From contig JBBELK010000011.1 in NCBI GenBank assembly GCA_037783545.1, positions 248,001 to 312,000 of the forward strand: a DNA stretch of 64,000 nucleotides, given 5' to 3'. Each line of letters starts with the position of its first letter. Position 1 is the stretch's first letter. Made by a program: the position numbers and the translations under genes. Below are positions 1 to 64,000 of the stretch, piece after piece. Source of the stretch: Henricia sp. BOLD:AAB3569 (Eukaryota > Echinodermata > Asteroidea > Spinulosida > Echinasteridae). The notes under the pieces were generated by a model. The model saw only the letters and a program-made list of their open reading frames with translations. It was not told the DNA's origin and searched no databases.

Positions 1-119
1 TTCAAAATGAAGCTTCCATTATCCAGATTCAAGTGACGTTTATTTTGTGGTACAGTATATTTTGACTGAATGAAAGAATGTCAAAACTGTTTTACAATGT
101 ATGACAGAATTAGAGAACA

Positions 120-258
120 GGGTCCTATTTCATAAAGCCCACTTAGAAACATTCCTAAATAAACATTCTTAACTCATGTTTTTAAAGATAGGAACAATTA
201 TATTTTATTGTTCCTAAATCCACTTAAGAATGTTTTTAACTTTTATGAAAAAGGACCC
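120..258. mobile_element. Small MITE, 139 bp
   Basis: The inverted ends GGGTCCTATTTCATAAAG and GGGTCCTTTTTCATAAAA continue into ACATTCTTAA on both arms. It belongs to the loose group with (G)GTC..ATTTCA ends. Confidence 0.7.
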
Positions 259-636
259 AGAATAGCTTTCTGTATGTGAACAAAGCAAATACACATGTAG
301 GATATGTGTACCGGTATGTAAAACACCAACAGGAAAAAAGAATCAAACGTGACTTCCAGTTTGCTTTGACCTTGACTGTCTTTCAAAATATGGATTTGTG
401 TACGCTTGACACACAGTGATTAAAACAGAAACCCAATGGATATCAAGGATATCAAAATAAATTAAAATACCCGAGTGGACTTTTTGCGGACAAAGTTAAC
501 TAATCACGTTTTCTGCACATGTTTAAAACTGTACTGTATTACACATGTAGGTGCCTACATGTACTTAATGGTGAGGCTCTTACTTAGGCAGTATGAAAGG
601 CTGTTTGTCACATGTACGCAGACATCTCATAAATGA

Positions 637-1061
637 GTCTTTCCACGGTAAAGGGGGCATTTTGGCAACACAGACCATATTTTTGAGGAAATACCTTTGT
701 CTGGTCTCAAAATAAACGAAATAAGTTTCCGTTGTTCTGAAGAGAACTTAGGCCCAAAAAGGGTTACAAATAGTGTGACAACATGCCTTTCCAAAAACCC
801 TGTGTACAAATTTCAAATATACGCTTGTAACCAGGACGGCCTAAAATGTAAGTGTACGAGCGTATATTGGAAATTTGTACACAGGGTTTTTAGAAAGGCA
901 TGTTGTCACACTACCGGTATTTGTAACCCGTTTAGAACAACTGAAGTTATCTCTTCAGGACAACTGAAACTTATTTCTTTAATTTTGAGACCAGCTAAAG
1001 GTATTTCCTAGAAAATATGGTCTGTGTTGCCAAATAATTGCCCCCTTTACTGTGGAAAGAC
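637..1061. mobile_element. Foldback element, about 425 bp, nearly all inverted arms
   Basis: GTCTTTCCACGGTAAAGGGG starts it and the inverse of GTCTTTCCACAGTAAAGGGG ends it. The arms of about 200 bp pair through GTGTACAAATTTCAAATATACG near the centre (about 838). The right arm has CCGGTA inserted relative to the left (912-919). A diverged relative of one arm lies at about 17000-17150. Confidence 0.9.
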
Positions 1062-1715
1062 ACAAATAGAGGAAGGGGCCCTTCACCTCTGTCCCTTTAA
1101 CATCTTTGATTGTAGTTCTTAACACTTGATGTTTGGAAACATTCACACCCCAGCCAATAAACATGAACTTCCCGTTTCTCCACCAAGCATGTCGACCGTT
1201 GACTTTCTTCAAGTTGTTTAACTTCCGCAACTTCCTGGCCCGAGTCTCTCCATCCCATATCAGTCTTGCAGGTTTCTCATGAGACACTGAGTGCCCCCTG
1301 GGTTGACATTGACTCACCCCCTCCCCTAGGGTAAACCCCCTCTACCCCTAATCAGTACCAGATGCAGGTACAGTCATTTGGGCCAGCATTGCGCATCATC
1401 GCTTCCACCTTCGGGACAACAAATCCGGGTGTGCATTTGGCCGAGGGCCAAGCACCGACTTGCACCTAAGACAAATTTCTATCCTTACGTTATCCCTGGA
1501 ACTCGCAAAATCCCACAATTTTTCTATTAATATCCCATAACTTTAACATCTCCATGAGGGCGTTATAGAGTGGAAACATTCAACTCAATGCACCAATAAG
1601 AAACAGGGCAATTCTATAATGTGCTTTATGTCTATTAGGAAGAAATTTGACGTCTGAGACTAGAGGTGGACTTGAAATAAACGGACTTTAAGTTTAAGAG
1701 TGATGCAATGTATAC

Positions 1716-1751
1716 TTGGGGAAGGGGGGGGGGGGGGGGGGGGGGGGGGGG
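1716..1751 (+). repeat. Poly-G tract
   Basis: A run of over 30 near-uninterrupted G; it could form a quadruplex and is prone to sequencing error. Confidence 0.95.
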
Positions 1752-2082
1752 AATGTTGCAACATGCAGGCCTACATATAATATTGTTATACATGTACCAT
1801 GATTATACATGAAGATTGCAAATTTTTATTGGTTGAGAATCAATCACACGATATGCCACAAATACGCATTAACACTCTCGGCTTCACCCTACATGCCATT
1901 TGCCCATTCGAGTGTACAAAACACCATGGGCTATTCACAGCAGGCAACAACTGTATAGTGAACAATGAACACTTGGTTGTTCAAGAGTCCACTAGTAGGT
2001 ACCGGTACATGTACTTAGCTTTTTTCTTCCTGATTATAATTGTCTTGGCTATTTTTGGTAAATAGTCTAGGAAACAGGAAAT

Positions 2083-2162
2083 TGGAGTGAGGGAGTGAGT
2101 GAGGGAGTGAGTGAGTCTCCCCCCCCCCCCCCCCCCCACCCCCCCCCCCCCCCCCCCCCCCA
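2083..2162 (+). repeat. GAGTGAGG short repeat followed by a poly-C tract
   Basis: GGGAGTGAGTGAGGGAGTGA is followed by about 43 C broken by one A. The open frames over it are compositional. Confidence 0.95.
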
Positions 2163-3257
2163 CCCTCTTTCCTTCACAGGGGTTGGATGTGGTTTGTTCC
2201 TCAGGGAGTCGGGTGATGAAAGAGGTAAGGTGGCAGCAGGTGAAGCAAGTTGATGTGTGCTTTGGGGAAGGGGGCAGAGAGGTGCCTTGGGGAGGGGGAA
2301 GAGAGGGGCAGAGAGGTGCAGCTAGGGTAGGGGCAGTGGAGAAAAACAGAATTGTAATTGAAACTTTGAGAAAATTAAGTCTGGATTGCAAAGCCCAATA
2401 AACTTATGACAAATGTCTAATAATGTTGGAAAAACAGACCAGTAGCAGAATCTTAATTTCAACTTTTTGGGGAGGTACATTTTAGAATTAGCAGACTTCT
2501 TTCCGATCTATTTTGTAGATAATTGAATAAAATAAGATACAGAGGCCATCAAAGATAATTTATCATCCCAAAATGTGAATATTACTAAAACAAAAAATTG
2601 TATTTTAAGAACTCCTGCAACTTTTGTACAGAATGTCATAATTACATGTAGATGGGGCATTCACCAAGTGACAACTGACAGCTGGCTCTTTCTAAAACTG
2701 TGAAAAATTACACAATTTTTGAGCGGCTGACAAACACAATCATACATGTACCACAAAAACTGAACATGGTTTTCTTGAAATCAAGAATCCCCTCAGAGAC
2801 ATAGGCCTACGTAGGTTAACTTTAGAAAGTTGACAAGCCACCATAAGGCCAACCAATCCGTAATAGACTCTGGTTTCAGCTTTCGCCAGGAATGCCATTC
2901 TGGGGACAAGAGGTCAGCCACAAATAAGACTGTAAATCAATTTGAATTTCTTGTATTTCAAGAATTTCTAAACTGGTTGGTTGTGTGGAAGTCTGGCCGC
3001 ATGGCGCATTGGTGACTTGATGTTCTGTCTGGTTTATATCTTTTTATCTTTCAGACATGTCAATTCAAAATTTTTATTGCCGTACATAAAATAAAGTTAC
3101 GAGTGATACTGTACAGCTTCATTATGCTTATGGTACATATTTCTTTTACATTTTATTTTAGTTTTGGAAAATGATTTTTTTTTCCCCTCTCATGCCAGTT
3201 TGTTTGAAATGCACAAGTTATGTCTTATTTCTTACTTCTTAGGTAGTATACCAACTG

Positions 3258-3334
3258 TGCCTTGTAGCTCAGCTGGTAGAGCATCTGCCTAGTGAGTCAG
3301 ACTGTCAGGTCTCGGGTTCGAATCCCGATAAGGC
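3258..3334 (+). pseudogene. tRNA-like sequence (Thr-type AGU), probably a pseudogene
   Basis: The A-box TAGCTCAGCTGGTAGAGC and B-box GGTTCGAATCCC are good, and the T stem TCGGG/CCCGA pairs. The acceptor pairs 6 of 7. The anticodon/variable region is 29 nt instead of about 23, as if about 6 nt had been inserted after CTAGTGAG, which breaks the anticodon stem. It could be a SINE head or a dead tRNA. Confidence 0.55.
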
Positions 3335-5652
3335 CCTTACGATTTTTCTCTTATCCCAAGTTTGGGTGTTTCATTTCAATGGTGATCAGGCACCATACCA
3401 GATGTTGTGTTCTTACTTCCAGTCTATCCTACTCAATGTATGTACAATGTACGTCTGTCTGATGAGTTGAGACCAATCCGTTTTGCTGGCCCCTTCACCT
3501 TTTTACTGTACTTCCCAGCGTCACATTCTGCCCCCATGGCAGGTCCCTAAGGCCCTGTGATGTACTTTCACAAAGGACTCAACCAGACACACCATGACCC
3601 CCAGTGTTCCCCAAGGATGGGACGAAGCTTGACCCTTCCTCACCTTTAAATCAGGATCATAAAATGCAAGTTTCCCTGTGCTTTCAAGTACAAACAGTGT
3701 GTACATGTAGTATGCTATACCCTATGCTCTTATACCGGTAGTGTAGTGTTTCCCAAGATCAATGGATTATACAAGAGGCAAGTATGACAAAATGTTAAAA
3801 ATAATAATGCAAAAACAAGTTTCAATTGTGACTTGCATAATAACCAATCTTTACCAAACATTCTCTTGTGCAGAAGGGGATAAGAGAATACTGGTCAAAA
3901 TCTCCCTCTGGGTATTTTATGAACAAAAAGAAATCAGAGGATTCTTCCTTTTCAGTCTGAATGTTGAGCATTTTGAATTAAGATGGCCGTCAATGCCAGT
4001 CACAAAAGTAAAAAAAAGTTTTGGGCTTTTTGAAAACACTATTGAACGTTCATTTTCCCATAAATCCCTCCTACTGCCATTTGCCCCACTCACCCTCATA
4101 CAAAGAGACGGGACAATGCCAGAGGCTTGTCAATTGTTTGGCCATAACAATGCCCCATTGTTACCGCAAGTACTGGGCTAAGAAACTGCACGTATGCCCT
4201 GGAGTGGGTTACACAGCCAAAATACTAATATCAGAGTTTTCAAACCTTTGGGCTAACTTTGTGGAAGTGTAAAGGTAAATCAAATGAGAAACTATATACC
4301 ATTCCCCCTACAACAAGAGAAAAGCAACAGGGACAGTGCTGCTTAAAGTGAAACATGATGATTGGGAATTTGGTATCAAAGGCATCAACATTCAACATGC
4401 ATAACCTGAGTAAAGTACATCTACCCTAATCCACTCTCCCTTTCAGTCCATTCATGTAGTCCATAGTCCTAGTGCTTAGCCAAGCAAAGCCTTTCTACAT
4501 GTATGTAGGGTTATTAGTGCAACTTGTAATGTACACCGATTGGGTTTTGATAACAACTTTTGTGCCGAGTCGCTTTGCCCCAAGCAGGGTTATGACTTTC
4601 ATTCGATGGCCTCTGTGGAGAGAATAAGGGAGTACCAAAACTGAATAAGGGGGCAGAAAATAGGAGGTACAGAACCAACCTGCATGCATTGAGTTATGGT
4701 AAAGTCAGGGGGTTTTGTTCGGAGTGAAATCCATGGCAAAGCTTTATTGATATCGAGTTTAAAGTCAATGTCACTCTCAATGCACTAGTAGAATTCTGTC
4801 AAGTCAACTAACAGCATGGACTACGTGTGTATATTTCTCATGTAGAAAATTTCACTTGCCAGGCCTACATGTACATACATAAACCTAACTGGCTGCCGAC
4901 AATGCTAACAAAATGCGAGACATTTACTTGGAAGAATTTAAAACTAGTACACAGTCTTTGTACTAATACTTAAAGGTAGTATACCGGTACTTGGTACCGG
5001 TTTGGTAAACTGTTAAAAACAGCATGATTTCCACTGGTAATTGAAAGCCTTTGTCGAGAAAACTACCTTGTAGAATTCTCAGCCACATAGATGCAGTAAT
5101 ACTTCAGAAAACCTTAACAATCCAAGCACGGTTTTTGTGCACAAATGAATTGGCTCGCAAAGATCGCCTGAATAGTTTTGTAATTTTTCTCATGAAAGGG
5201 GGCAATTCATATGAAATAATTTCACAGGATGATTACTACCATTACTATCTTAATAACAAGTAAGCTTTTAGATAATAATTCAGAATTTTTTGGAGGGTAA
5301 TTACCAAACAAGTAGACTACTGGGTACCTTTAACACTACCCAGATAGGGAAAATGCTGAACTTTAAAATGAAAGTACCGTAATGTTTACGGTGCATATCC
5401 ATTCTGAATAATTACATTAAACAACATACTTGGATTACCTCCCAACCCAATATTAAATGTCTATTTGCATGTTTTACAGACAAGAACTTGTATTATTAAG
5501 TGCTGGACCCAATTTGAATTTTACAAAACTGTTTTGCAGAGATTCCAAGGTCAACCAAAACCTGATCATGTGATTGTTGAAAGGCCAAAGTGCATCCCCT
5601 ACGGAGAAAAAGTATGGTAATGTTGCTTTGTGAATAAACTGCACACTAGAGA

Positions 5653-8669: not shown

Positions 8670-9087
8670 CCGTGTTTACACTCGAACCGGCAAAGGTGAA
8701 TACAGACCGAGCAAAACTGAACATTTGCCGCGTTTACAATACACCCCAAATCGCTTCAACTCGCTTTAGAGACCGCAAAAGTTGCTGCACTAATGCCAGA
8801 TTGGTCAATTAAATCTACTACACGGCGGGCACCGCCCCAAGGACACTCAAATTGCCGAATCTGTGTTCGGGTAGCGTTTAAACTACAAGCGACCTTGACA
8901 ATTGCGGGGTTCAACCCTACCCCAAAGGTGACTTGAAAAAGGCGAATCAGACCTGGGTCTGATCCGCCTTTTTCAATTCACCTTTTGCGTTTACACTTAG
9001 CGCCTGCCTACCCGGCTTCAACTCCCCTTTTTGGCAATTGCGGAGTTCGATTCGGCAAAGGCGAATCAAGTGTACATGTAAACGGGC
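8670..9087. mobile_element. MITE with GTTTACAC ends
   Basis: Left GTTTACACTCGAACCGGCAA and the right inverse GTTTACATGTACACTTGATT align if CATGTA is removed from the right end. An internal hairpin lies at 8935-8980 (AAAAAGGCGAATCAGACC). Confidence 0.6.
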
Positions 9088-9715: not shown

Positions 9716-9735
9716 TAGGCCTACATGTACCGGTA
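9716..9735. repeat. Chain of three TA-N4-TA palindromes
   Basis: TAGGCCTACATGTACCGGTA: cores GGCC, CATG and CCGG share their flanking TAs in perfect 6-base register. Other chains lie at 6350-6361, 10243-10256, 12595-12602, 19498-19512 and 33047-33062. Confidence 0.9.
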
Positions 9736-11262: not shown

Positions 11263-12640
11263 ATTCCTTACATTCTTTTTACATGCATGCTTTAGACGGT
11301 AATGTTAGCATTTTTAAGATGACTAAGTTATATACTGCCTTTTCTCAATTAAAACCCTTCATAAATTCATTCTTAACTCAAGTGTAAATGAGCATTAGCT
11401 GTAAGTATTACCAACGGCCTTGGGCTTGACTATTAGGGTTCACTCCATCTCAAACTTACATTACCAGTCGACTGGTAAATTTATTAGCAGGAAACTGTCT
11501 GCGTGAACACCCTCGGCTCAACCGCATCCCTTTAGGGAGGTGGAAAAGCATTCAGATCGCTGCACCTGTTAGTATAGCTCGGCTGGAAATATTACCAGCA
11601 GCTTCTCAAAATGTTGGGGAAAAAATCCGTGATGTAAGAGGTTGTCCTTGACCCTGGACTCATCTGGACAAGATAGAGCCAGGGATCAAGGGATCACTGT
11701 CTGTAATCTCTATAATGCCTGCCTCCCTTCTGTATTAGGAGGATGTCAAGGGACCGAATGTCTCTATATGCACACCACAGGGCTTGGGCGCAGTCGGCCC
11801 TCAAAGCAGGATCATTCTGACTACAAGCGGAAATTCCGTGTAATGGTTTGATGCCAGATTGCGATATATTCCCTCAAAAGAGATTATCGAGAGCAAATGA
11901 AAAATCCAGAGAAAGATAATTTGTGTCCCGTCACCAGATTATTTGTATGGACATGTAGACGAATAAAAATAGCACTGTTTACATTCTAACCAGATGTTGT
12001 AGTTTTGTGTGCTGTTTTTACAGTATCATGTTTTAATGTGCCGTTTCCTGTATGTCCTAGTCATTCTACCTCTGAAGACTCCTCTGCTTGGGTTCGAACA
12101 TCAGGCCACTAATTTTACAGAGGAAAATCCAAATAAAACATTGATCAATTTAAATAAATTAAAAGGGGAAATTGTGTGTTGCCTTCGCATACCTGCCAAC
12201 ATTGCCGAGTAAAAAATTGGACTGTAGTGAAACTTGCAGCAGTTGGTACATGTACATACTATGTACAATGGTCAAGTTGACCTAGTACTGCACCAGTTTT
12301 TATGTAGTCAGGTCAAGTTGACCGTTTACCACCTGTTCCGATTTTCAACACTTTTAACACTTAAAAGTCAGAACAAATACGGACTACATGTACCGGTAGT
12401 TGGCAGGCATGCCTTCGTCACTAAACCAAATGTGCTGTGTAATTATGTTGTGTAGTTTAAAGTATTCAGCTTTTGATCGAGGTACACGTACCTGTACCGT
12501 ACATGTATGTATATTTTTCTATGGATATTGAGATTTTCCCAACGGTAATATTGCATCTCTATGCATGGCTCTTGGCATACATGTATGTAGGCCTACATGT
12601 ATACGTACAAATGCATTTTCTCTCAAAGCCCCAAATCCCA

Positions 12641-12742
12641 CAGCCTGTTGTTGCACCATATCCAAACTGTATCTATCAAGCCTTGCATCAGCCTGTTGTT
12701 GCACCATATCCAAACTGTATCTACCGGTATCAAGCCTTGCAC
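12641..12742 (+). repeat. Tandem duplication, 48-bp unit, second copy with a CCGGTA gain
   Basis: CAGCCTGTTGTTGCACCATA starts at 12641 and 12689. The copies agree except that TA at 12674 is TACCGGTA at 12722-12729, plus the very end. Confidence 0.9.
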
Positions 12743-13347: not shown

Positions 13348-13687
13348 GGGGTACCGTGGCCGAGTGGTTTGGGTCACTCACTCGCAATACTTGGGTGAAA
13401 ACTTGGGGTTGCAGGTTCGATACTCAGCTGGGATACCCATGCCCTTGAGCAAGGCACTTACATGTAAACACACTTGCTCCATCCTTTGGAAGGGATGTAA
13501 AGCCGTTGGTCCAGTGTGTTAGGTAACGCACTTTAAAGACCCCAGAGCATTCTTTCGTAAAGAGCAAGGGGATTCCCCGGTGTCTCTGGCCATTTCTAAT
13601 TCTCCTGATGGGTTTCCTCATGCTTGCGAATCCTTTTTTTAAGGAATCCTTGGTTTCAGTACCAGAAAGAAATAATAATAATAATAA
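13348..13687 (+). mobile_element. tRNA-derived SINE, family S1 copy 1
   Basis: It begins GGGGTACCGTGGCCGAGTGG, a type II (Leu/Ser-like) tRNA head, with B-box GGTTCGA. A body follows with CCTTGAGCAAGGCACTTA and AGGGATGTAAAGCCGTTGG, then an AATAATAATAA tail. It has gained TACATGTA at 13459-13466 compared with other copies. Confidence 0.88.
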
Positions 13688-14150: not shown

Positions 14151-14537
14151 AAAGGCCTGTCCGCATTGCAATTTTTGGGGAAACTTACCGGGACGATGGG
14201 TATTTTCCCCATTTTTAATCCAGTGCGGACAGCCTACCCACGGTAGGAAGTTTTCCTCTCAGTAACTTTACCCCGAGTCCAGGGGTTACTTTTCCTGGCC
14301 AACTGCTGCCCAGGAACTGTTTTTGAGACGATAAGTCACATTGAGTTGGTAAAAGCGCTCTGGAAGTGTATGTCCGGGCCATAAGGGTCATACTGTGAAG
14401 GGACACTGCGCATGCTCTCATACAGTCTTGGTAAAATTTTTCCAAATGCGGACAGCAGTAAAATTTAGCCATTTTTCATTTTACCATCATCTTGGTTTAA
14501 CCTCCCGAAAAACAAGTCCAATGTGGACACGGCTTAA
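14151..14537. mobile_element. MITE family H copy 1
   Basis: Ends AAAGGCCTGTCCGCATTG and the inverse of TTAAGCCGTGTCCACATTGG; interior with ACTGCTGCCCAGGAA and CGCATGCTCT. It has a plain TA at 14369 where the other two copies have 8-base palindromes. Confidence 0.85.
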
Positions 14538-15702: not shown

Positions 15703-16635
15703 CCGTACATGTAGGCCTACATGTATGTGTGTTGGGATTCAGTGCTCAGTTAAACCTCATCCACACTGTGGTGAAATGCGACGGAAATGGTAACTGGCCA
15801 GTAATGGAATGGCCTAAGCAGCTCTTTGTTCGCTATAAGGAACCGCCACGATAACCAACACTTTTTATGGTCCATAATGTTCTTCATGATAGCGATTTTC
15901 ATGCGAGAGAACATGTCCTAGTACTTTCACACCTCAAAGGAAAGATAAATTAGTACCGGTATACAAGTTTTGCTGGGAGAAAGTCTCTTGAGAGGAAACA
16001 CACTTTTAAGAGTTGGATGGATCCGACTTCCGTTGTGAAACTCTGCAAGTATTGATCACAGATGGTGCATGGGACCGGCTCATGGTTCTGCCTAGTTATG
16101 CTAGCCCTAGTCTTGTTGGCAAGTGACAAGATGTCCCCCTGGGTTGGAATTCTGATGTGTTAAGGCAAGAGGAAGGGCGATAATTTGAGGAAGGGGGTAA
16201 GAAAGGGGTCTGCTTCAACTACAAGTGGACGATTTAAGCACTCTTTGAGTATGGCTACTGCAGAGGAGAGAAGGGACGTGTACTGTGTACTGTGTGCTTG
16301 TAACTGATGTTTTGGAATTAATTTAGGGACAGAATTTAGGAAAACATGATCTGAACCAAAAGAAAGCTTGCAATAAAGTACACCAGAGGAGGACAGACAT
16401 TGCCTCGGGGTAATGTCCCCCAGAGAGCCTCCTTAGCCCAGAAACACCTTCAACTGATCATAAGCGGCTTAACTTTGTTGTGTTAACACCTTTTTGATAC
16501 AGAATTATCCCTGCTTTACACTTTGTACATATGTAGGCCTACATTCAAGCTATGATCTCCATTCAAATTTCTAACTAGGACACAGCGTATAATCTCGTTT
16601 ATGTTGTAACCTCCATCTCTGGGGGTTGAGAAATC

Positions 16636-16761: not shown

Positions 16762-18276
16762 ATGGGCCAAACATCTGGGAGGTTTCCATGGGATCACTTA
16801 AATGATTCAAACGTTTGGCAAATCAAGTAACTTTCCTGAATCGTTTATTAAAAACAGGTGCTGACTAGTTGAGGAAAAAAAATTGCGAGAAAATACGCGA
16901 ATTAGCGACAATTTTTAGTTGGAATCACACTGAATAAGTGAATTGGTACTTGGGTTTTCCACGCTAATGGGCCTATTTGAAAAATAAGTCAATAATTCCT
17001 TTCAGATGTCTTCAGTTTATCTCAAACTTAAAGAAATTCCCTTGTACTGTCTCAGGAGATAACTTTTGCCCAAAAAGGTAAGAAATAGCTGCCACAACAT
17101 ACATTTCTGAAAAGCTTGTGTACAAATTTACCCTTATACGTATGTAACTGTACACAACACATGCGGCGCGCGGATAGTCAGGTCAAGTCAACCGTTTTGA
17201 TTGTTCAAATTTTTAACACTTTTAACACTTAAAAATCGGAACAAATACGATAAAATCAGACTACGTGTAGTTGGCAGGTATACGTACCAATATCCCTAAC
17301 TTATTGTGAATAGTGTACAGTACTGGAAAGTCCAATAGTCCTGTGACATCCAATCAGACATGTAAACACGGGAGAGGTCAAAGGTCACCGGAGAACCAGG
17401 AATCATCAGGGACACCGCTGAGGGGTGCCTCCCAAAATAGACGCTACTCAGCAAGAGCTAATGAAGCCTTACCGGTACATACTGCACATGTAGCAGGGAT
17501 GGTACAATCTACCGGGGGTAAGGAATCGTATAATCGCTGCAGAAACCAGGCTAGATACCGGTATATTCCAGAAAGCTTGTTTTCCAAAGAGCTAAAGAAA
17601 ATTTGACTGTTACAAGCAAGATCATCAGTTTCTGGGTCATCCATATTACAGGAATTTTCAGTAAAAAGGGTGATATTCAGGGACAGGGACCCTAAAATTT
17701 GTGAACTTATCCATATATTGTTGATTTCGGTATTTTCCCTGCCACTTTGTATGAAATTTCATTTATATTTTCAAGTTCCTAATCACCACACACCTGCACT
17801 TTGCATCACTTTTCTAAGAAATCACAATCACGAAGCCATAGGGAGGCCCAACCTACTGTATAAGTAGGCATAAACTTGCTTCTAACCTTTACCCCAAAAG
17901 GCTAAGGTACACTAATAATGACATTAAAATCCCCTGCAACCATGTCATAACTCCTACGCCTTCAAGGAACTGACACTAATGGTGGGTACATGTATAAGAG
18001 ACCGAGTGAGCACTTTAGTATGAGAAATGTGAAACCTGTAAAGATTTGGAGGAGGGGCACTTGAAGCCTGAAGCTTGGTTTTTGCTTGTTCAGTTTTTAA
18101 ACATACAAAACAAGCCAGTGACTTTGAGTGTACCTTACTCATACTGTTATGAAAGTTGACTTGTGAGAATGTATGAAGACAACCAAAATGTACCAGTACA
18201 GGGCTATTTCAGTCCGTCAGTTACCTCTTGCTTTTGTGTAAGGTACACATGTAGATATAAACACCCAAGGCATGCG

Positions 18277-18525
18277 GTTTCTATTGAAGATCCGGAATTT
18301 TACCCATTAAACCCATTTGCCATTTGCCAGTAAATAGCAGGTTATGCAAAATTTCTACTGAGTCGCTCTATCCAGAAAATAGCCAAGCTTGCTGGCCTTC
18401 CATCACGCTTCGTGAGTTTGCCGGATAAAGGTCATATGCAGGGGTCAAGCACGTACATGTACACATTGGATTAGACATTTTCTCCTCTGTGTGCGCACTC
18501 GGGCAGAACGGTGTGTGTTTCTATT
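18277..18525. mobile_element. MITE family J copy 1
   Basis: GTTTCTATTGAAGATCCGGA starts it. It is similar, inverted, to 27157-27410, sharing the AGCAAGCT-region and CATTGGAT..GACCCCTG parts. A second J-like unit follows directly. Confidence 0.7.
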
Positions 18526-18983: not shown

Positions 18984-19407
18984 AAGCCGTGTCTGCATTG
19001 GACTTGTTTTTCGGCAGGTTTTACCGAGACGATTGCAAAATGAAAAATGACTAAATTTTACTGCGGTCTGTATTTGGACTTTTTTGACACAGGGAAGTTT
19101 TAACGAGACCATGGGAGAGCATGCGCAGTGTCCCTTGGCGGGATGACCTTTACAGCCCAGACATACATGTACGCTTCCAGAGGGATTTTACCGACTCGGA
19201 TGTGTCCGCATTGGACTTATCGTCTCTGGTAAAGTTCCCTGGTCAACTTTCCTGGGGAGCAGTTGGCCAGGAAAAGTAACCACTGGACTCGGGAAAAGTT
19301 ACTGAGAGGAAAACTTCCCAGGCTGTCTGCACTGGATTAAATTGGGAAAAGTACCCATCGTCTCAGTAAGTTTTCCCAAAAAAGGTCCAATGCGGACAGG
19401 CCTTTAA
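18984..19407. mobile_element. MITE family H copy 2 (inverted)
   Basis: GCCGTGTCTGCATTGGACTT starts it; TCCAATGCGGACAGGCC closes it. TTAA stands at or next to both edges. TACATGTA lies at 19164-19171. Confidence 0.85.
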
Positions 19408-24778: not shown

Positions 24779-25201
24779 TAAAGCCCTGTCTGCATTGGAC
24801 TTTTTTGGTCAAACTTGCCGAGACGATGGGTCACTTTTCCCATTTTAAGTCCAATGCGGACAGCCCAAGAAGTTTTCTCAGTAACTTTTTCCTGAGTCCA
24901 GTGGTTAATTTTCCTGGCCAACTGCTGCCCAGGAAAATTGACCAGGTAACTTTTCCCGAGACGATAAGTCCAATGCAGACACATCGAGTCGGTAAAAGCG
25001 CTCTTGAAGCGTACCGGTACGTCCGGGCCGTGAAGGTCAAACTGGAAAGGGACACTGCGCATGCTCTTCCACGGTCTCGGTAAATTTTACTGTACTGAAA
25101 AAGTCCAAAAGCAGACAGCAGTAAAATTGAGCCATTTTTCATTTTATCATCGTCTCGGTAAAACCTCCCGAACAACAAGTCCAATGCGGACACAGCTTTA
25201 G
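24779..25201. mobile_element. MITE family H copy 3
   Basis: TAAAGCCCTGTCTGCATTGG starts it and TCCAATGCGGACACAGCTTT ends it. TACCGGTA lies at 25012-25019. Confidence 0.85.
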
Positions 25202-26575: not shown

Positions 26576-27156
26576 TATATCTTTTTCATATGCTGTTAAA
26601 TGTCATTTCAATATCATTTCAACTGTCTCGCATAGCATGCTGAATAGCGATATTTTGTCTGCAGTACATGTACATGTAGGAACAGCTGAGATAGCGGTTA
26701 AAGGTGTGTTTCAATGCATCGCCAAAATGTGTTTATTGCTGATGCAGTGATGGCTGCAGTGGAAACAGCACGCATCACAAGTCTGTACTGCTTTTAGCAC
26801 CAACAGTCTCTCTTTAAATCGGAAATTATTTTACAGGAAATTATGCAAAAACACCCTTAGATCTTTGGGAAATTTGTCAGCTGTTTCAACAAATGTTACC
26901 TACTTCCCTGTATATAGAACTGCATATGAGGTATGCATCATTACACATAGTAGGTACATACATGTACATGTAGTAGGTACTGTGGTAACTGGTATGCACT
27001 TGGATGTGGACAAATGTAGTGAGCTGGCAACACTGAACAGTTCAGAGTTCAGAGTTCAGAGTTTTTACTGGGCATGCCCACATGGCATTTTTGGCAAGTG
27101 GCAGATGACCTCGGGGTCACGCGATAACAGCCTCAATGAAACATACATGTAAGAAC

Positions 27157-27410
27157 GATAGAAACACGCACTGTTCAACCCGAGTGCACATACAGGAGAA
27201 AACATAATATGCAGGACCACAAAATGGCTGATCCAATGCACGTTTGACCCCTGATATGACCTTAATCCGGCAAACTAACACTAACGCATGACGAAGGCCA
27301 GCAAGCTCCCTTATTTTCTAGATAAAGCAGCTCAGTAGAAACTTTGCGTTACCAGCTATTTACCGGTTAATGGGTTTACCGGTAAAATTCCGGATCTTTA
27401 ATAGAAACAT
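27157..27410. mobile_element. MITE family J copy 2
   Basis: GATAGAAACACGCACTG start and GATCTTTAATAGAAACATGC end; the inverse of 18277-18525. Confidence 0.7.
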
Positions 27411-32206: not shown

Positions 32207-34766
32207 ATACACATATGAATCTAGTGTAATTTTTCTTGGAAACTCTCCCAGGAATTTAATTCAAACAAATTTGCTACTGGTATGTAGATGTACATGTACC
32301 GTAATGTGAAAAATGCTTTTGTTGGCACCATTCCGTGTACAAATGCAGTTGCTTCTAAAGACTATGTTTCTTGTAGCCTGTTTAATAGCTTGTGTTTTTT
32401 CTCAGCAACTATTGAACCCATTTTTTATTCCCTTTCTCCGGATTTCTCTGTTGAAAAGGAACTCTAAAATGCCAACAGTAAAATTAACTTATTTTCTTCC
32501 CATTTTCCTGCGGCTATTGCAAGGCTTTTGTCCGCATTCAAAACTCCCACAATGGTCCTTCAAAGTGCGTAAACCAAGGGGATTGTTAAGACGTGTCTCG
32601 AGGGTCTTAGACCACAATTTGGGGCATTTCAAATCCCCCTCAAGAGAGTAACCAAAGAGGATTGGTCAAATAATGGCCCAATGGGTGAAAAGGGGGTAGT
32701 TACAGCGCAGTATTATGGACTGCACAATGCGACATAACGGTGCACCATGTACACTTTGTGCAGTCATTGTGTTGAGTGGAAGTTGTATTCATAGGCTCTG
32801 CACACAAAACTATTCCCTTGTGACCGCTGTGTAAAGCTTATTGTTGGAAGGATACCCATGAATTGAGAGTCGTTAAATGTTCAGCTTCTCCCCTGTGTAC
32901 TTTGCGAATGCAATCTTTGAACAATGAGCTTTTTGTTACCAATTTTTATTACAAAGCAGCCAGTCTACAATAATGGTTGGTTTGGCATGTCCTTTTATAT
33001 AATGGTTACGATTCTGTAAATTCTGCAAAGGTATGGTGTTACACTACATGTACATGTACATGTTACCCTTTTTATGTCTTAAGTTATCTCCTTCAAACAA
33101 CATATTCCAAGTTTCTTTCTTTTATTTTGTGGAAAGATAAAGCCGATTGTTTGAAAATATGATCTTGGGGCAAATGTACACGTGCCCATTTACCGTTTAG
33201 ACGAACCACCTTCAAATAAGATCCATTTTGAAAATATTAAAGTAATGTCATGACTGAATTTGTACCTGTATCCTACGTGCACCCCTACTGAACCTTTTGG
33301 AGTTCTTAAATGCATTCGCTCCTTCCCACACTACCCTTTAAAAAATGTGCGTAATACAGTATCCATGTAACACTGCCATGTTGTTGACCAAAATTGAACA
33401 TTTGCATGCACTGGTACTGTAGGCTACAAGTTTGTATAATGCAGACACAACATACAATAGCATGCAATGTAACAGTTTCACACATGCATGGGTTTTTGAC
33501 AGGTTCGTTGCATGATCTACACAGAGTCGGGTCAAAGCTATACAAGTGCCTTTACTGCAGAATAGAAACACATGAACTTCTCACCCTAGACAATATCAAC
33601 ATAGGGGATCCGCATGGCACGTAAATATCATCCAAATGTACACAAGTACATGTACCGTACGTACACATAGAATGCATTGCATAGCATTCAAAATGAGCTC
33701 AGGTAATCGTACTTATATTAAATGTTGGTTAAATGATTCTTGCTTGAAATTTGAAAAGGATTATAATTCTATAAAAAAAATTAGGCACACCGGTACTACA
33801 TGCTTAGTGGAGCACAGCTAAATTCAAACAAAACTATAAAATCAAAATAATGTATCCAAGACCACAGTGCATGACACCAGAAGGCGAGCTTGTCACAAAT
33901 GTATCGATGAAAAGGGGACATTATCCTCAAAACAACAAAAGAATAAAGGTGAACAAAACGAAATGACTAAATCAGTTCAGTGAACCGCAAATCCTATTGC
34001 TATACCTTCACACAATATCTACCACTAACAAAGACATGTTATGGAGTTTAGTTTTGGTTTATGAATATCAATGACAAATATTTTCACCCACACTACTTTG
34101 TACTAAGAACATTAGATGGAAACAGAAAAATAATAAACAGTTTTGGGAAAAAGAATTGAATTCAAGGAAAATTTATGCATTAAAAAATGATACTTGCATT
34201 ACTTGTATGACACAGTTATGTAAAGTGGTCTGAGGTGCTGAATACTCCTGGATATATGCAATGCTTAAAAACAGCATTTTTATTTGTTTTATGTTGAGAT
34301 GTAAGTTTTCAATTCAATTCAATTTTATTATCATGACATAAAATATATGAAATTTAGTTTACCAGTGTACAAGATAAAACACATAAACATCACAAAACAA
34401 CAAACTGGAGTAAAAACCACTTAAAATACAACGGGATAAAAGGCTTGAATCATGGGTTGGGATAAAAATCAATTATGTTGTCAAAATAGCACTTATATTT
34501 GAATATTGCAGCAAGCCACTAACTCCCACAAAAAGTATTAAACCAAACTGCAATAGACCTGAAACATGATGACGTCATTGTTTGTTTTAGCATAATTGGT
34601 AAATTGGTACAGCGGACCTTTGACATGTGTATAGATTGGTTCCCGCTAGAGATGGCATTCCGCAATAAGCGATAGGATCGGGAACCGGTAAGGAAGTCAA
34701 GATCGTTGGCATAGTTGGGGGCTTACCAGTTACAAAGAGGCAACATCTTGAGATAGTGTAACTTAC

Positions 34767-36042
34767 CATTGAAGTAGCTCTTGCTTCGCAGGTAGCTAAC
34801 GCTGAGGCGAAGAATGGACAATTTATCCAACTTTGAGATAGTGTCCGTATCAAACGGCAACAGACTCGCCAGACGGTCCAACTCAGCATTGAGTCTGTCT
34901 CGATGGCGTTTACTAGGATTAGATTTCACCTCCGTTGGAGTTTGAGTTTGATTTCTGCAACAAACATACAATAAAAGAGTCACTGCTGGATCTAGATCCC
35001 TGGTCTGAACAGAAACATTGGGCCAAATGCACAACCGAGCAAAATAAAAAACAAAATATTTGGAAAAAAATTTATACATTGGATGGCTTTGAGGGTGAAT
35101 ATACCACACGAGTCATGAAAATACTGAACGAGCTGAATGCAAGTTCGGTATTTTCATGATGAGTGCGGTATATTCCCATATCACCTGGAAAGACATCTAA
35201 TATTATAATCATATAAAATGAAACTTGAATGAATACCTTCGTTGTTTTGTAAGATTTCTGCAAGATTGGTGTCTTTTTGGTGTTGAAAGTTTCGGTTCTT
35301 TTCCAACGTCTACAACTTTTGTACAGTGTTTTTTATTACTGTCTTACGCATTACGGTCTCACGCATTGCGCACACGCACAGTGCATTCACACGATGCATG
35401 ACGCATGTGTATGCGCATGCTTGGTGCGCATAGCGTGTACGCGATTCAGACTGGGGCTCTGTGCAGCACAGTATCAGAAACACACGGTGCCCGCAAAAGC
35501 TTCATTTTATATAATAATTCCGTTTACTGGTCGCCACTTATTCTCCTTATGATGACTTAATTTATTTTATTTTTATTTATTATACCATCTTTAAGGCTGA
35601 TCATTCGGGGCCCTCAGTTATATAACAATAAAAATACATAATAACTACCAAAACGTGTAAATATTTTGAAGGAAGAAATTTTGAAAATACTTAAACATTT
35701 TACTGCCCTGTTCCATAGACTAGTATAGACTTAACACACGGCGTCTCAGTGGCGACCAGTAAACGGAATTCATACCAAATATTTTGTATTTAACCAAAAG
35801 TTCAAAAGCTGGCTGTTTTTAAAAAACACAAAGAAAAACTTTAAAAACAAACAACTGAAATAAAACAAAACACAAACAAAACAATTAAACAAAACAAAAC
35901 AATTAAACAAAACAAAATCATAAATAAATGCATTAAAAAAGCACACCCACCTTTTAACTGGTCTCCGTCGTCTCTTTCCAGCGTACATTTTTTGCGATAT
36001 GCCATCCACCGAGTCTACAGAATATGTTGACAACGACATCAT
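34767..36042 (-). CDS. AHR: Aryl hydrocarbon receptor homologue, first two coding exons (bHLH part), partial
   Basis: Coding exon 1 is complement(35951-36042), starting [13 protein letters not shown] and ending in a basic run KRRRRPVK; the donor is GTGGGT. Coding exon 2 is complement(34767-34954), after a TTGCAG acceptor and before a GTAAGT donor. The join is phase 2 and completes an Arg codon. Exon 2 reads [13 protein letters not shown], then a helix-loop-helix ([27 protein letters not shown]). This is the diagnostic AHR basic region and b[15 protein letters not shown] is close to vertebrate AHR, and the basic KRRRRP resembles the AHR nuclear localisation signal. The family is a ligand-activated bHLH-PAS transcription factor that dimerises with ARNT in the nucleus. 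The PAS domains would lie at lower coordinates. I could not recognise them, so either intron 2 exceeds the 34 kb available or a short diverged exon was missed. Intron 1 is nearly filled by two repeats (35079-35515 and 35516-35770). ATG 36042 is the first in frame, with a second immediately after it. Confidence 0.88.
35079..35515 (+). mobile_element. Repeat family P copy 1, in AHR intron 1
   Basis: It matches 58165-58557 in reverse orientation: TTGGATGGCTTTGAGG at one end and GCATTTTGCGGGC-like, TTTTATATAATAAT at the other. Shared inner words are AAAACTTCAGTTC-type, GGTGTTGAAA and CGCATACGCGTG-like CpG runs. It includes a hairpin at 35111-35180. Confidence 0.75.
35516..35770. mobile_element. 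MITE with perfect 23-bp ends, in AHR intron 1
   Basis: AATTCCGTTTACTGGTCGCC, extended by ACT, stands at 35516 and its exact inverse ends at 35770. It abuts repeat P. The interior is AT-rich. Confidence 0.9.
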
Positions 36043-37829: not shown

Positions 37830-38109
37830 AGACCGTATTCCTGAACGCGGGAGGGCGCTCGAACAAGGTGATTTGGGGGGAAATGTCCATAGACGACAGT
37901 AGAAAAGTGGGGGTACGTGCATACGTACGGGGGGAAAAGTCGCGTACGCGGAGCGCGCAGACCTGTGTCGCGCGCACAGATTTCCATTCAAAATAAACGT
38001 TTGGAAGGCGTGTGCGCGTAGCGCGTTTTGTGTTCGAACATAACGCACGATGGGCGCGGACCAGGCGCGGACCACTTGACAGCGCCCTCCACGTTCAGGA
38101 ATACGGCCT
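37830..38109. mobile_element. MITE family A copy 2, nested in a tRNA-like foldback
   Basis: This is the inverted-orientation relative of 10540-10808. Left flank CCTACCAAT and right flank ATTGAGCTATA rebuild the tRNA-like CCTACCAATTGAGCTATA once one AT is removed, so the target duplication is AT. Confidence 0.9.
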
Positions 38110-38623
38110 ATTGAGCTATAAAGCCAACTGGTGGTCTTGAATCACGGTAGTGCAGTTGATCCTCACTGATTGGGATTGGCTATCATGTGAGCTTAGCAAG
38201 CCCTACAGAGAAATAACCACCCCTCCCAGAGATCAATTATAATTAAGATACGCCCCAAACTCGACTCCTGCCCGGCTTGCCCAAGTTTTTAAGTATGAAT
38301 AAGCGGTTATATTTTTAGGGATTATATATAACCCAGGGACAGCCGAGATGAATTATTTCACCTCGGCGGTCCCTGGGTTAACCCTAACCCTAAAAAATAT
38401 AATCACTTATTCATACTTAAAAATTGGAGCAAGCCGGGCAGGAGTTTGGGGCGTATCTTAAAGGCACAGGCTCGTCAAGGCTGACGAGCTTCTGCCTTAA
38501 AATGATCTCTGGGAGGGGTGGTTATATCGTTGTAGGGCTTGCTACGCTCACGTACGTGAAAGCGAAGCCATATCCCAATATAAGGAACAACTGCACTACC
38601 GTGATTCGAGACCACCAGTTGGC

Positions 38624-38695
38624 TTCATATAGCTCAATTGGTAGGGCGTCTGCACATTAAGCAGAAGGTCCGCGGTTCGAATCCCGATAGAGCCA
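38624..38695 (+). pseudogene. tRNA-like sequence (Asn-type anticodon AUU), right end of foldback
   Basis: The D arm GCTCAATTGGTAGGGC and anticodon arm TCTGC-ACATTAA-GCAGA are intact, and a B-box GGTTCGAATCC is present. The T stem is mostly mispaired and the acceptor carries two extra bases. This is a tRNA-derived repeat head, not a convincing tRNA gene. Confidence 0.6.
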
Positions 38696-45754: not shown

Positions 45755-45876
45755 CTAGCTAAGATAATCTCAGCTCTTTTTTTATCATTTTTCATTGGGA
45801 TGTGGTCTTTTCACGCGTGAAAAGACCACATCCCAATGAAAAATGATAAAAAAAGAGCTGAGATTATCTTAGCTAG
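45755..45876. repeat. Perfect 122-bp palindrome, no spacer
   Basis: Two 61-base arms match without a single mismatch when I check them base by base; the centre is ACGCGT at 45813-45818. The outer ends are CTAGCTAAG/CTTAGCTAG, and the next outward pair (T, C) does not match. Confidence 0.98.
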
Positions 45877-49072: not shown

Positions 49073-49344
49073 TAGACCCATGAACAGGGCTCCGGAACCT
49101 CCGCCCTGCCCCTGAAGCCCTGTTGCCGTTTCCCACCCAAAATCTGTGGCAAACTCGCGCAAATGAAATTTGTCCCTTAGGTCTGATATTTGCTCATTAG
49201 GTGCACTCACCCAAACGTTTAAATATTCTGAAATGTACGCATTGATCTGATAAACTCGGTGAAATCATATTAAGGCAAAATTTTGACCCTCCGTGTGGGA
49301 AACGGCAACAGGGCGGAGGTTCCGAAGCCCTGTTTACGGGTCTA
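49073..49344. mobile_element. MITE, about 270 bp, upstream of the katanin start
   Basis: TTAGACCCATGAACAGGGCT and the inverse GTAGACCCGTAAACAGGGCT; both continue CGGAACCTCCGCCCTG. It ends 139 bp before the katanin ATG, so it may overlap the promoter or 5' UTR. Confidence 0.85.
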
Positions 49345-49482: not shown

Positions 49483-58134
<8,652 letters not shown>

Positions 58135-59911: not shown

Positions 59912-60311
59912 TCATTTAATTGAGGGTCAGGAACTGATTTTTCTCGAAAATGAGTCTGGATGTCAAGATTTCCTTAGATAGGAGTTTGAGTAGATTCTCT
60001 GCTAACTAATTTGTAAATAACTTGGACAAAGTTTGCGCTGCCTGTACTGTATACAATGTTTGCCTTAAAGTATACAATAATTGATTGCAAGATTTTATCT
60101 TTTAACAAGCATGGTTTGGGTTATTAATGATTGTTAAAATTGGTGTTGCGTTCATCAGGATCTATTTAATTTAAAGGAAGGGACAGCACTTGCAAAGGGT
60201 TGCTTAATTATATACGCTTCATGTAAGTCGTTATCTTGCAGTTTGGCGCTCGGACTTAAAAGGGCGTGAGTCAGGACACAACAGATTTTTACATTCTTCA
60301 CTGTGTATGGG

Positions 60312-60555
60312 AGTCGGGGAAACAAGGCATCAATATTGACGTCATCCATGCAATCATTGCATGGTTGACGTCATCATCCCTTTCAACATTTCTAATATGG
60401 TGCAGCACATAGTTGCAGAGTTTATCATCAAAATGAATTGGGTTGCCGACGTTGAAAACAAGATTCTCTGATTCTCATGAAGGTTTGCACCGGGCAATAC
60501 ATCGGTAATATTTTGATTAAATTCGTCAAACAAGTGTTGTTCCTAATTCCTTTAA
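60312..60555 (-). repeat. Dispersed repeat V copy 2, with the same double CRE palindrome
   Basis: Reverse-strand relative of 42640-42866. TGACGTCA lies at 60337-60344 and 60366-60373 around CCATGCAATCATTGCATGG. Confidence 0.85.
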
Positions 60556-61089
60556 TTTCAAGGACCATTTTTACTTTGAAGTTGTTGTAATTCAGTTGTG
60601 AATCAAAATTCAAAATAATTTACCAAATATTTTGGGTAATTCTCTGATGATCTTTTGTGGTTGTTCTAAAATACTAATAAATGTTAAGAATTGTGCAGTG
60701 AATATTGCCTTAGCTTTGTGTATGTTTTGTCCTTTTGCAGTGACGAGAGGGGTGGTGTGTGGTCGGGGCGATGTGTTGAGAGGGTATGAAAACATACCAC
60801 TACGCCCTCTATTTTATCCTCGATTTAATTCAGAATAGAGGGCGGTGTACGGACGGGTGTACCCCCAACTTAACACCCCGAATAGAGTCTAGTTTTCACT
60901 CGCATATTTCTCCAAAGGGTATATTCTGGAAATGGTCAGAACTCTACTCTCACTATTAAGGGGGAAAGATAACGAGAAAGCTGTTCTCTACAAACCAGCT
61001 TACTAGAACAACTCATTACTTCCGTTTGGTTTGGTTTAACATTCAGTACTGTGTATTTCATTTTGATAGTATGGAAATAAATGCGAATT

Positions 61090-61172
61090 TGAATCGAAAC
61101 TGAAGCAAGATTTGAACCAAGGACCTTCTGATTGAACGTCGAGATCTCTTCCAACCAGACCACGAAGCTTGT
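61090..61172 (-). pseudogene. tRNA-like remnant
   Basis: On the minus strand, CGTGGTCTGGTTGGAAGAG (A-box-like) and CTTGGTTCAAATCTTGC (B-box-like) are correctly spaced. The stems are poor. It is probably the head of an old SINE. Confidence 0.45.
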
Positions 61173-64000
61173 GCAAACTCCCCGTTTTTCTCCAGGCTAC
61201 GACGTAAACAAATGAATCCGCCGACACGTACAACCATAGACATTCGACTTTGCGTGATGCGCACCATGCGCGAAAACGCCAAATCTTCAGAAAATGTGGA
61301 ACTCGTGGGACATCAAATCTCGACTTATGCAAAAGAAAACCCAACTTGAATCTTGTCTACAAAGTACAATCTACATTATTTTAATCATCAGTTGAAACCA
61401 TTGATCAGCTATGGCTTGACCATGTCTGACTAATGGTCAAATCTTTGACAGCGTTTAATATAAAACACGTTTCTGATTATGGCCGCGAAAACCCGCCCCA
61501 GCTCCCTTCCAACAGTTGGCTGACGTCATCATGACGTCAACATATCTCTCCCTGTCTCTGGTAATGATGGACAACTCGCCTTGGGATGTAATTACGTCTT
61601 TTGTCCCAAGGTGTGAGCTACGACAATTTGACAATCATTCAGGGAGCTGTCCCGTAACTGTGTTTCATTGTTTGCCTCTTACCGTTCAAGTCTGCTTATT
61701 ACTGGCGGACAAAGGCCTGGCGAGATTACACGGCCACTCCGCTGTGTCCAGATCACAGCCTTGCGGTAAATTACTTCTTTTTATTTCATGACTCAATCCT
61801 CTGGTTTTGTTGCTCAGTCTTTTGCACAGGTGAGCGTACTTGTGGCTGTCATTGTGCCCCTGTCAACGCCACTGTCATTTGATTCCCTCCCCCCACAACA
61901 ACGCATTTGAGAACAATGTATATCGTTAATTACCAGTTTATACATTTGCTGAAGCCATTAGACTCTCAAATGAGATATACTTAAACAAATATGTGACGAT
62001 CAAGTTTTCGCTGTGAAATAAGTGGAATGTAAGCGATCGCATGGACTGAGGGGCAGTCTAGGCAAAACATTATCTTTCTATACCAAGATGGCGGACGCGT
62101 TGCTTTAATTCACGTATAGACATTTTACAGGGGTCAGTGGAAGTTTGCATCGAACAGGCGTTCATTTTAAAACCTTGCCGTCTCACAAGGTTATCTAAAA
62201 TTAATTGCGCCTAAATTATAATGCTTTCTACTGCCATGTTTGTTATTTGCCCAGTGCACCACACACGCACAATCACTGCACTGAACTTTTCCCCCAGATT
62301 CGAGTTATTTGCACTTGCCATTCAATTCGAATCCGCATGTTTGGTATTAAGCGGCAACAAAAGATGAGACCTTGGCACGGTGTGTATTACCGCGCTAAGT
62401 TATAAACGGAGTCAAAAGTTTCCCTTTTAGACTCCGGTGTGACCTACATATCACACAGGATTGAAAACTCACTGAGCTGTGGAAACTAGATCAAGCGTAG
62501 TTTGGTCTGGGAAATAAATCCATCCATGTTCTTCCCTGTCGTTCTGCACAGACTGCGCGCACTGGTTTCTCGTCCCTGTGTGTTTGAAAATGATGAAATG
62601 TCATTTTCGCAGAATTGATTGAATAAATCATATAATATTTTACAGGGTTCTGAGTGCAGTTTACATTTTAACAGCATTGTAAATATAGCACAGCCTTCAT
62701 CCGCAAGATTCTGAGCATGCGTAGACTGAGAGGCTGAGATTAGCTGAACAATATCCTTGCGCAGTGGTCACTCTTAGCATAGCAAATTCCCATTGTTGAG
62801 AAAGTAGTAGCGAAGTAGCCTCCCCAAGGACACAAGTACACGAACCGCCGTGGAGCGGACTTGCACTGCCGCATTCCAATTTGAGTTCGGCGCATAAACT
62901 GTATTGCGAAGCCATCACTTTTTCGAAGCTGAAAACTGTCGATTACATTTTTGTTAGCGATGTCAGATAGATTTTTGTAAAAATGGAGGAAACGGCAACT
63001 CACGCACCACAATCTAGAAATGGAACCAAGGCCAGATTTGCCCAAACGTCACGTCACAATGGGCCGACTCGACGTGTTTGAATGCTTCGAAAAGTACGTT
63101 CACGCGCCGGCAATTCCGGGGGAACTCAGTTGTCGAAAAGAAAGGCGAAAACGGGCCAAGTTTGTTGATCTTCTGTAGGATTTCTCTCCAAACTAGGCCA
63201 AACGATCAAGTCTACCATTGTGTCCAGCTTGTAGGCAGTTGTTTGGTGGGAACAAAGCCCGTGGAAATGACAAGTACGGTTCGCTCCCGACCGCAGCCCC
63301 GCGGGGCATTGGCGAGAGAACAAGCCGGCTTGCATGGTTCCTGGGCTGAGCTGTGCTACGCACCAAGCTCAATACCGCCCAATGGATCAGGTATTCTGCT
63401 GCGGGTTTTCCTGAAATGAATCTTACAATCAGTGACCTTCCCCAAGAAACTAGTTCAAGGATACGATGGGGGTTGGACTCATCTTGCACGTCTTGTGCTT
63501 CAATAATGGGTTAAGCCGGGGAAAGAGGCCCCTTGCGCAGCCCAAACAATACGCAAGCAGGTCCCACGAACGTCGGCCGCCCCGAAGCGATTGCTGTAAG
63601 CTCTTCCCCTCGTCTCCCCCTCGTCTCTCGTAAGATACGGGAATGTTTTCAGAAGTGAAATCAACTTGGCCGGCCCAATCGACTAACACTTGATACTTTA
63701 TCAAGCTTTTTGGTTTGCAGTTCAAGAAAAGAGGGTCCGAGTGATTCTGAGACTTTAGCTCGTACACTCATAGGCCTACATGCGAACAGCGTGCCCTGTT
63801 TGTTATCAAGGACAAACACATGTGTCTGACGTAATAGCTGGTTCAGCCAATCATCTGCTTTGCCGTTTTGACCAAAGCTGATCATTGGTTAAATTCACGA
63901 AAACGTTATAAACATGTTTCAAACATATGGTCGCAAAAACTCGCCTCCGTTTCCGTTACGAACTATACACGCCCAGTCACAGTCGCAGTGCCACACCCTC
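61173..64000. other. CpG-richer stretch without a recognised gene
   Basis: GC and CpG content increase after about 62800. Several open frames of 60-110 codons overlap on both strands and none resembles a family I know. A first exon of a gene beyond the window end is possible but unsupported. Confidence 0.4.

Follow-up and report, generated by a model that had tools for sequence, protein, structure and literature searches.

A stretch of 64,000 nucleotides from the sea star Henricia sp. BOLD:AAB3569 (positions 248,001 to 312,000 of contig JBBELK010000011.1, assembly GCA_037783545.1), hereafter termed the window, raises the question of how three palindromic octamers came to recur in it. The octamers, TACATGTA, TACCGGTA and TAGGCCTA, each consist of a four-base core (CATG, CCGG or GGCC, respectively) framed by TA dinucleotides. 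An initial annotation, made from the letters of the sequence alone, took them to be six-base insertions at TA, possibly transposon footprints. Our analysis indicates that the octamers very probably arise by six-base steps at TA. Among the explanations considered, the best is that they are excision footprints of Tc1/mariner-like cut-and-paste transposons inserting at TA, a reading that we hold with moderate confidence.

Octamer abundance

The window contains 105 octamers, made up of 69 copies of TACATGTA, 24 of TACCGGTA and 12 of TAGGCCTA. A third-order Markov background, for which the octamers were masked and a 127-bp tandem array was excluded, predicts 2.1, 0.5 and 0.3 copies, respectively. 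The recurrence described in the initial annotation is confirmed by this count.

The three octamers are the strongest TA-framed words of the window. Sequences of the form TA-N4-TA number 440, versus 272 ± 18 in 30 simulations, and those with a palindromic core number 126, versus 19 ± 5. When core lengths of 0 to 12 bases were compared, an excess of such size was found only for four-base cores. Lesser excesses of palindromic cores occur at five bases (34 versus 20 expected) and at ten bases (7 versus 0.3 expected, 7 being the copy number of TACATGTACATGTA). A search for over-represented TA-framed words (cores of 1 to 8 bases, at least 6 copies, z > 4.5, both strands pooled) returned CATG, CCGG, GGCC, CATTG/CAATG and CCG/CGG; the remainder were TTA microsatellites and longer words that contain an octamer. 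Alternative frames (AT, GC, CG and CA) produced mainly microsatellites and words that potentially overlap octamers, such as ATGTACAT and CATGTACATG. The 7-mers TACCGTA and TACGGTA, which had also been described as common, occur 13 times versus ~3.4 expected.

Such words might be attributed to point mutation or to a compositional bias that favors palindromes. However, 12 of the 13 other palindromic four-base cores sum to only 19 copies versus ~12 expected, and the excess of one-mismatch neighbors per perfect copy is just 0.29 for CATG and 0.32 for CCGG (it is 1.08 for GGCC, calculated from 12 copies). We consider this origin extremely improbable.

Six-base gains at TA in related copies

When the window was aligned against itself, 62 matching stretches emerged, and every octamer site, both filled and emptied of its unit, was compared against the rest of the window. 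In the first comparison, 20 of the 105 octamers had a spanning relative. Ten of these scored below 38 bits and were excluded; two of the ten matched better when emptied and eight when filled, largely because chains of octamers matched other chains. A usable relative was available for 12 octamers, including one (9073) for which the two ends of an element were compared. Ten of the 12 are gains of 6 or 12 bases (912, 9073, 12385 and 12391, 12722, 13459, 19164, 25012, and 33045 and 33051), one is imprecise and one is contrary. The sites are listed below, with no strand assigned.

912-919, TACCGGTA: right arm of the foldback at 634-1064, whose left arm has TA at 771; exact 6-base gain.
9073-9080, TACATGTA: right end of the element at 8670-9087, whose left end has TA at 8677; ends compared side by side.
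12385-12398, TACATGTACCGGTA: the copy at 17175-17281 carries TACGTGTA, which has one unit fewer, a 6-base difference.
12722-12729, TACCGGTA: second arm of a tandem duplication, with TA at 12674 in the first arm.
13459-13466, TACATGTA: in one of four copies resembling a short interspersed nuclear element (SINE); 6-base gain versus the other three.
18454-18461, TACATGTA: in a repeat that has another copy at 27149-27408; the size of the gain departs from a clean six bases.
19164-19171, TACATGTA: copy 2 of repeat H; 6-base gain versus copy 1, which has TA at 14369.
25012-25019, TACCGGTA: copy 3 of repeat H; 6-base gain at the TA site shared with 19164.
27377-27384, TACCGGTA: the relative at 18277-18356 reads TA-ATGGG-TA.
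33045-33058, TACATGTACATGTA: at the TA homologous to 771 and 912, in a diverged further copy of the foldback sequence.

Two repeat families present the same TA in several states. The homologous TA of the foldback family is bare at 771 and at ~17.1 kb, occupied by TACCGGTA at 912, and occupied by TACATGTACATGTA at 33045, although the copies at 17 kb and 33 kb are diverged and their alignment is less secure. The units at 33045 and 33051 add 12 bases relative to the bare copy, and the emptied sites match better (39.7 and 41.1 bits). In repeat H, the homologous TA is bare at 14369 and carries TACATGTA at 19164 and TACCGGTA at 25012. In the duplication at 12641-12741, the second arm minus CCGGTA equals the first arm at 47 of 47 bases.

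The comparisons drawn in the initial annotation at 771/912, 12674/12722, 14369/19164/25012 and 8677/9073 were thus all recovered. Its comparison of SINE copies stands with respect to the six-base gain at 13459, but the TA of the empty site is not intact in two of the three other copies, where the sequence is CTCAACC; in the third copy it is CTTTATC. A short core bounded on each side by a duplicated TA, which is a trait of Tc1/mariner footprints, is seen in single alignments.

A formal comparison with other TA-N4-TA sites depends on the score cut-off that is applied. Without a cut-off, emptied sites outscored filled sites for 10 of the 22 octamers that have any relative versus 21 of 69 controls (p = 0.15). 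With cut-offs, the corresponding values are 10 of 22 versus 11 of 55 at 30 bits (p = 0.03), 8 of 17 versus 8 of 49 at 34 bits (p = 0.02), 8 of 11 versus 7 of 45 at 38 bits (p = 0.0005), and 6 of 9 versus 7 of 43 at 45 bits (p = 0.005). Because the choice of cut-offs postdates the first run of this comparison, we rely more on the single alignments than on the p-values. Octamers within one repeat are, in addition, not independent. Three octamers above 38 bits did not gain from being emptied, namely 19164 and 25012, each of which matches the octamer of the other, and 27377. Several of the control gains reflect TTA microsatellites or the edge of a foldback, and the one at 918 is directly adjacent to the octamer at 912.

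The alignment check that the initial annotation called for supports single six-base gains well, and six-base gaps also occur apart from octamers. Gaps of 1 and 2 bases are the most common in the self-alignment, followed by 6 bases (20 of 175, with repeated counting). Of these 20, 7 correspond to octamer gains and 13 lie in other sequence (some were counted repeatedly). These 13 gaps would suit an origin of octamers by point mutation, as would the octamer at 27377, which could stem from substitution.

Copies of host repeats that hold octamers are 74 to 85% identical in the self-alignment. From the excess of one-mismatch relatives, we estimate that CATG octamers are ~3 to 4% diverged if all are of one age. 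This divergence is below that of the host repeats, which agrees with gains that occurred after the repeats had spread.

Chains and target context

As the initial annotation pointed out, octamers can be joined in register. The window has 17 such chains, and 73 of the 105 octamers are unchained. Two examples, again with no strand assigned, are as follows.

9716-9735, TAGGCCTACATGTACCGGTA: in-register chain with three different cores.
15706-15725, TACATGTAGGCCTACATGTA: in-register chain.

Random re-insertion of 105 units yielded a mean of 2.4 chains when TA sites were chosen uniformly, and a mean of 4.8 (maximum 10 in 60 runs) when sites were weighted by their flanks. Cores differ in 10 of the 17 chains and are equal in 7, and the equal-core fractions in the two simulations are 0.44 and 0.58; the cores within chains are therefore mixed as expected of independent events. 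All six chains that include GGCC join it with CATG.

Chains in excess of simulation are what would be anticipated if a six-base unit had expanded by tandem slippage to form a dispersed microsatellite. However, most octamers are unchained and most chains mix their cores, and slippage does not account for the first unit at a bare TA. We judge it very improbable that the octamers originated in this way. Classification as a microsatellite was likewise rejected, since equal cores are joined in only 7 of the 17 chains and most octamers stand alone.

Units occur in a preferred sequence context. The three bases preceding TA are A-pyrimidine-purine at 18% of half-sites versus 5% of the background, a figure based on 144 of 210 half-sites (those resembling a neighboring unit were dropped) and one in which symmetry is imposed by the pooling of both flanks. 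Directly before TA, the frequency of T drops from 35% to 12% and that of G climbs from 19% to 38%. Of the 73 unchained octamers, 37 are preceded by a purine and followed by a pyrimidine. The richest context is GTAC, where 13 of 256 sites carry a unit, compared with 6 of 341 for ATAT.

A proposed excision model

Tc1/mariner/IS630 elements insert at TA and duplicate it, and cleavage of the Tc1/mariner element ISY100 takes place exactly at its 3' ends and two bases inside its 5' ends (PMC2170065). Excision of Stowaway and mariner elements leaves the TA duplication plus short end fragments, and the sites in yeast are mainly end-joined (PMC4561436).

If the octamers are excision footprints, insertion of a transposon would have duplicated TA, and cleavage by the transposase two bases inside each 5' end would have left TA plus two element bases as a 3' tail on each side. 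End joining that retains both tails would then produce a net gain of six bases. Element ends of CA..TG would yield TACATGTA, CC..GG would yield TACCGGTA, and GG..CC would yield TAGGCCTA, such that there may have been three groups of elements, with CA, CC and GG as their respective terminal dinucleotides. The cores are palindromic in the 2+2 arrangement that this model expects, with no element at hand to match. Because each scar would carry two TAs, later events could chain in register. We infer the past resident element, the type of transposase and the repair route.

The model also predicts variant joints. Loss or addition of one base at the joint would generate CCG/CGG and CAATG/CATTG, whereas loss of one tail would generate TACATA/TATGTA. 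Among these products, CCG/CGG and CAATG/CATTG are clearly over-represented, CA/TG weakly, and CC/GG not at all. At 11 sites the extra base within the CA core is A or T, compared with 3 sites at which it is C or G (strands pooled). The added A or T might reflect untemplated addition at the joint, although a third element base A would fit equally.

A different process that targets TA, with no resident element being excised, could also write fixed palindromic six-base units. One such process would be the joining of TA breaks caused by a nuclease, or by a transposase working in the absence of a full element. Such micro-insertion would account for the same six-base gains and flank preference, and it is in keeping with the dominance of the two-tailed form and with the finding of no resident element in the window and no transposase domain in 1-60002. 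However, three fixed cores would require a template, and element ends would naturally provide one; moreover, the CCG/CGG and CA/TG forms are in line with two tails that were partly lost. We know of no system that writes fixed six-base units at TA without an element, and we regard this explanation as unlikely.

Points against excision

A number of observations weigh against excision footprints as the origin of the octamers. No TA-flanked inverted-repeat elements with CA, CC or GG ends stood out in the window from those with other dinucleotides, and six-frame Pfam scans of 1-60002 (E 0.01) detected no transposase domain. Octamer density falls five- to sixfold past ~29 to 34 kb, which the model does not explain, and the left-hand bias of joint variants weakens once variants that touch octamers are removed. 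The 17 chains exceed both simulations. The one-end forms are weak, with TACATA and TATGTA totaling 52 versus ~35 expected, and TACCTA and TAGGTA totaling 17 versus ~15 expected. The empty-site test is not significant when no score cut-off is used, the size of the gain at 18454 is imprecise, and 27377 is a counter-example to simple gain. Finally, the octamers depart from known systems. The preferred flank is GTAC-like, whereas ZB prefers ATATATAT, an AT repeat; the excision scars of ZB and Passer measure 0 to 3 bp and 0 to 4 bp, respectively; and Stowaway scars have mixed joints (for example, TACTCC..AGTA) and their elements persist in some lineages, whereas the palindromes here are uniform.

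Our confidence in excision footprints is lowered by the sensitivity of the formal test to its cut-off, and by a flank preference that is not AT-rich like that of known Tc1-like elements. The dominance of the two-tailed form, the regional step in density, the excess of chains and the missing resident elements are not explained by the model. The source element need not be common, however, because every jump of an element that does not copy itself leaves a single scar. Of the mechanism put forward in the initial annotation, what stands is that it fits best, that joint variants share the regional bias of the octamers and that TACATGTA is cited as a Tc1 footprint (PMC3520976); no matching element ends were found in the window, and no transposase domain in 1-60002.

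Search for resident elements

The initial annotation suggested a search for full TA-flanked elements with CA..TG, CC..GG or GG..CC ends, and in the 64-kb window this search came back negative. Inverted pairs matching at 12 or more of 14 bases number 53 with a TA frame and 57 with an AT frame, and many of them lie within foldbacks, inverted SINE copies or octamer chains. In a second pass that excluded the TAs of octamers, there were 3 candidates for CA, 3 for CC and 2 for GG, compared with 1 to 10 for other dinucleotides.

One candidate, at 3689-4962, is a TA-flanked sequence of 1270 bp with ends that begin CAAA and a Tc1-like length. Its ends are identical at only 12 of 16 bases and it has no transposase domain, so it was rejected as probably due to chance. 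Two TA-flanked sequences of other kinds were observed. The sequence at 35525-35761 (233 bp) has inverted ends CTGGTCGCCACT and is a possible miniature inverted-repeat transposable element with CT ends. That at 49073-49344 (268 bp) has 36-base inverted ends at 92% identity, with GACCC directly after TA.

A scan for TACCGGTACATGTA matched 68 viral stretches, once each. The three-octamer pattern had no match in viral contigs, and one contig of a bacterial metagenome-assembled genome matched. The 69 retrieved loci (530,373 bases) contain 86 copies of TACATGTA, 79 of TACCGGTA and 1 of TAGGCCTA, mostly the retrieving matches themselves.

Regional distribution

The step in octamer density divides the window into two zones, neither with a strand assigned.

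1-34000: octamer-rich zone with 92 of the 105 octamers (2.7 per kb) and 2358 TA.
34001-64000: octamer-poor zone with 13 of the 105 octamers (0.43 per kb) and 1789 TA; bHLH, RWD and katanin p60 exons.

If the density is taken to change at a single point, that point is best placed at 29120, with 87 octamers to its left and 18 to its right. The octamer-poor zone is not free of repeats, since it has 5580 bases of self-similar repeat sequence versus 3770 in the octamer-rich zone.

Several joint variants are distributed similarly. Left-to-right counts are 12:1 for CCG/CGG, 11:0 for CAATG/CATTG and 39:13 for CA/TG, and one-mismatch derivatives (70:26) also follow the octamers. Removal of variants that touch octamers leaves 8:1 (p = 0.09), 7:0 (p = 0.02) and 27:13 (p = 0.20) for the three variants. 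The bias of the octamers is absent from CC/GG two-base cores (8:9), CAG/CTG (14:6) and other five-base cores (170:125), and other TA-N4-TA words lean weakly to the left (210:125, p = 0.03).

Six-frame Pfam scans at E 0.01 found no domains in 1-30002. Farther to the right, they detected a bHLH exon on the minus strand at ~34.8 to 34.9 kb, which by our own reading is of the AHR type; an RWD domain at ~40.2 kb, followed by a sub-threshold DFRP_C match at ~41.4 kb; and pieces of katanin p60 (KATNA1 MIT, AAA and Vps4_C) from 49.5 to 58.1 kb. Together with the SINE-like repeats, the bHLH exon and katanin p60 point to an animal. TCAAG-rich minisatellites lie between katanin exon matches at 52397-52881. 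The tandem array at 53935-55748 comprises 14.3 copies of the 127-bp unit (98% matches), and this unit repeats an exon-like katanin p60 piece that encodes 18 protein letters. A match to the histone 3' untranslated region stem-loop family is present at 56546-56590 (35.7 versus a gathering score of 34); no histone domain was found at E 0.01 in Pfam scans of 30001-60002. Also observed were a perfect 122-bp palindrome at 45755-45876, which is 100% identical to its own reverse complement, and two tRNA-like matches, at 3257-3337 and at 38628-38689, of which the latter overlaps the edge of a foldback at 38107-38641.

Similar words in other organisms

The sequence taCATGta is described as a rare Tc1 footprint in Caenorhabditis elegans (PMC3520976, citing Eide and Anderson 1988), and the same paper calls the four-base Tc1 form rare. 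This footprint has the same eight bases as TACATGTA, namely TA, two bases per end, and the duplicated TA. However, it is rare and element-linked in C. elegans, whereas the window has 69 copies in 64 kb, no such element was found in it, and two further cores are present. Stowaway footprints in Triticeae genes likewise have short end fragments between two TAs, and in wheat relatives insertion and loss have occurred repeatedly at one TA (PMC1925063).

Two of the three octamers are also over-represented in Phytophthora infestans, where they are known as motif-1 or M93 and as M94. In Phytophthora, TACATGTA lies upstream of 12,070 genes (PMC3520976). It is M93, which occurs 4150 times in the promoters of P. 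infestans. TACCGGTA is M94; the two are palindromes that differ only in their two central bases (PMC3597505). These motifs have been interpreted as transcription-factor sites in promoters, and the Tc1-footprint reading was set aside in PMC3520976 since the motif is abundant and conserved. No repeat-copy test is described in the passages of PMC3520976 and PMC3597505 that we draw on.

The octamers of the window might similarly be sites for a homodimeric transcription factor that selection has maintained or spread. Such an origin was proposed for TACATGTA in P. infestans, where TACCGGTA is also listed as a promoter motif. The over-representation of both words in promoters (PMC3520976, PMC3597505) favors this possibility, as does the description of TACATGTA as an Irx homeodomain site (PMC3520976). 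However, octamers in the window were gained by six-base steps inside SINE-like, MITE-like and duplicated sequence, they form in-register chains with mixed cores, and they are rarest in the part of the window that bears genes. Factor sites are therefore a highly unlikely source. An array of factor sites that arose by substitution and selection was rejected as a classification, because six-base gains are seen in repeats.

HIP1 of cyanobacteria, GCGATCGC, is likewise a frequent short palindrome, but it differs from the octamers in that it has no TA frame and is linked to DNA methyltransferases (PMC4390886). No report of the octamers as scars accumulated en masse was found in the open-licence literature.

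Implications

It is possible, although we propose this only tentatively, that excision scars in this animal lineage exceed one per kb and represent a running count of jumps that far outnumber the remaining elements, and that the promoter words of Phytophthora are also scars. If the proposal is true, there is a caution for motif finders, in that an abundant promoter palindrome may be a transposon leftover. Cut-and-paste transposition need not leave extra copies, and its long-term rate is therefore hard to measure. If the octamers are scars, past jumps would be readable from octamer counts and from comparison of orthologous TAs, even after the elements themselves have vanished.

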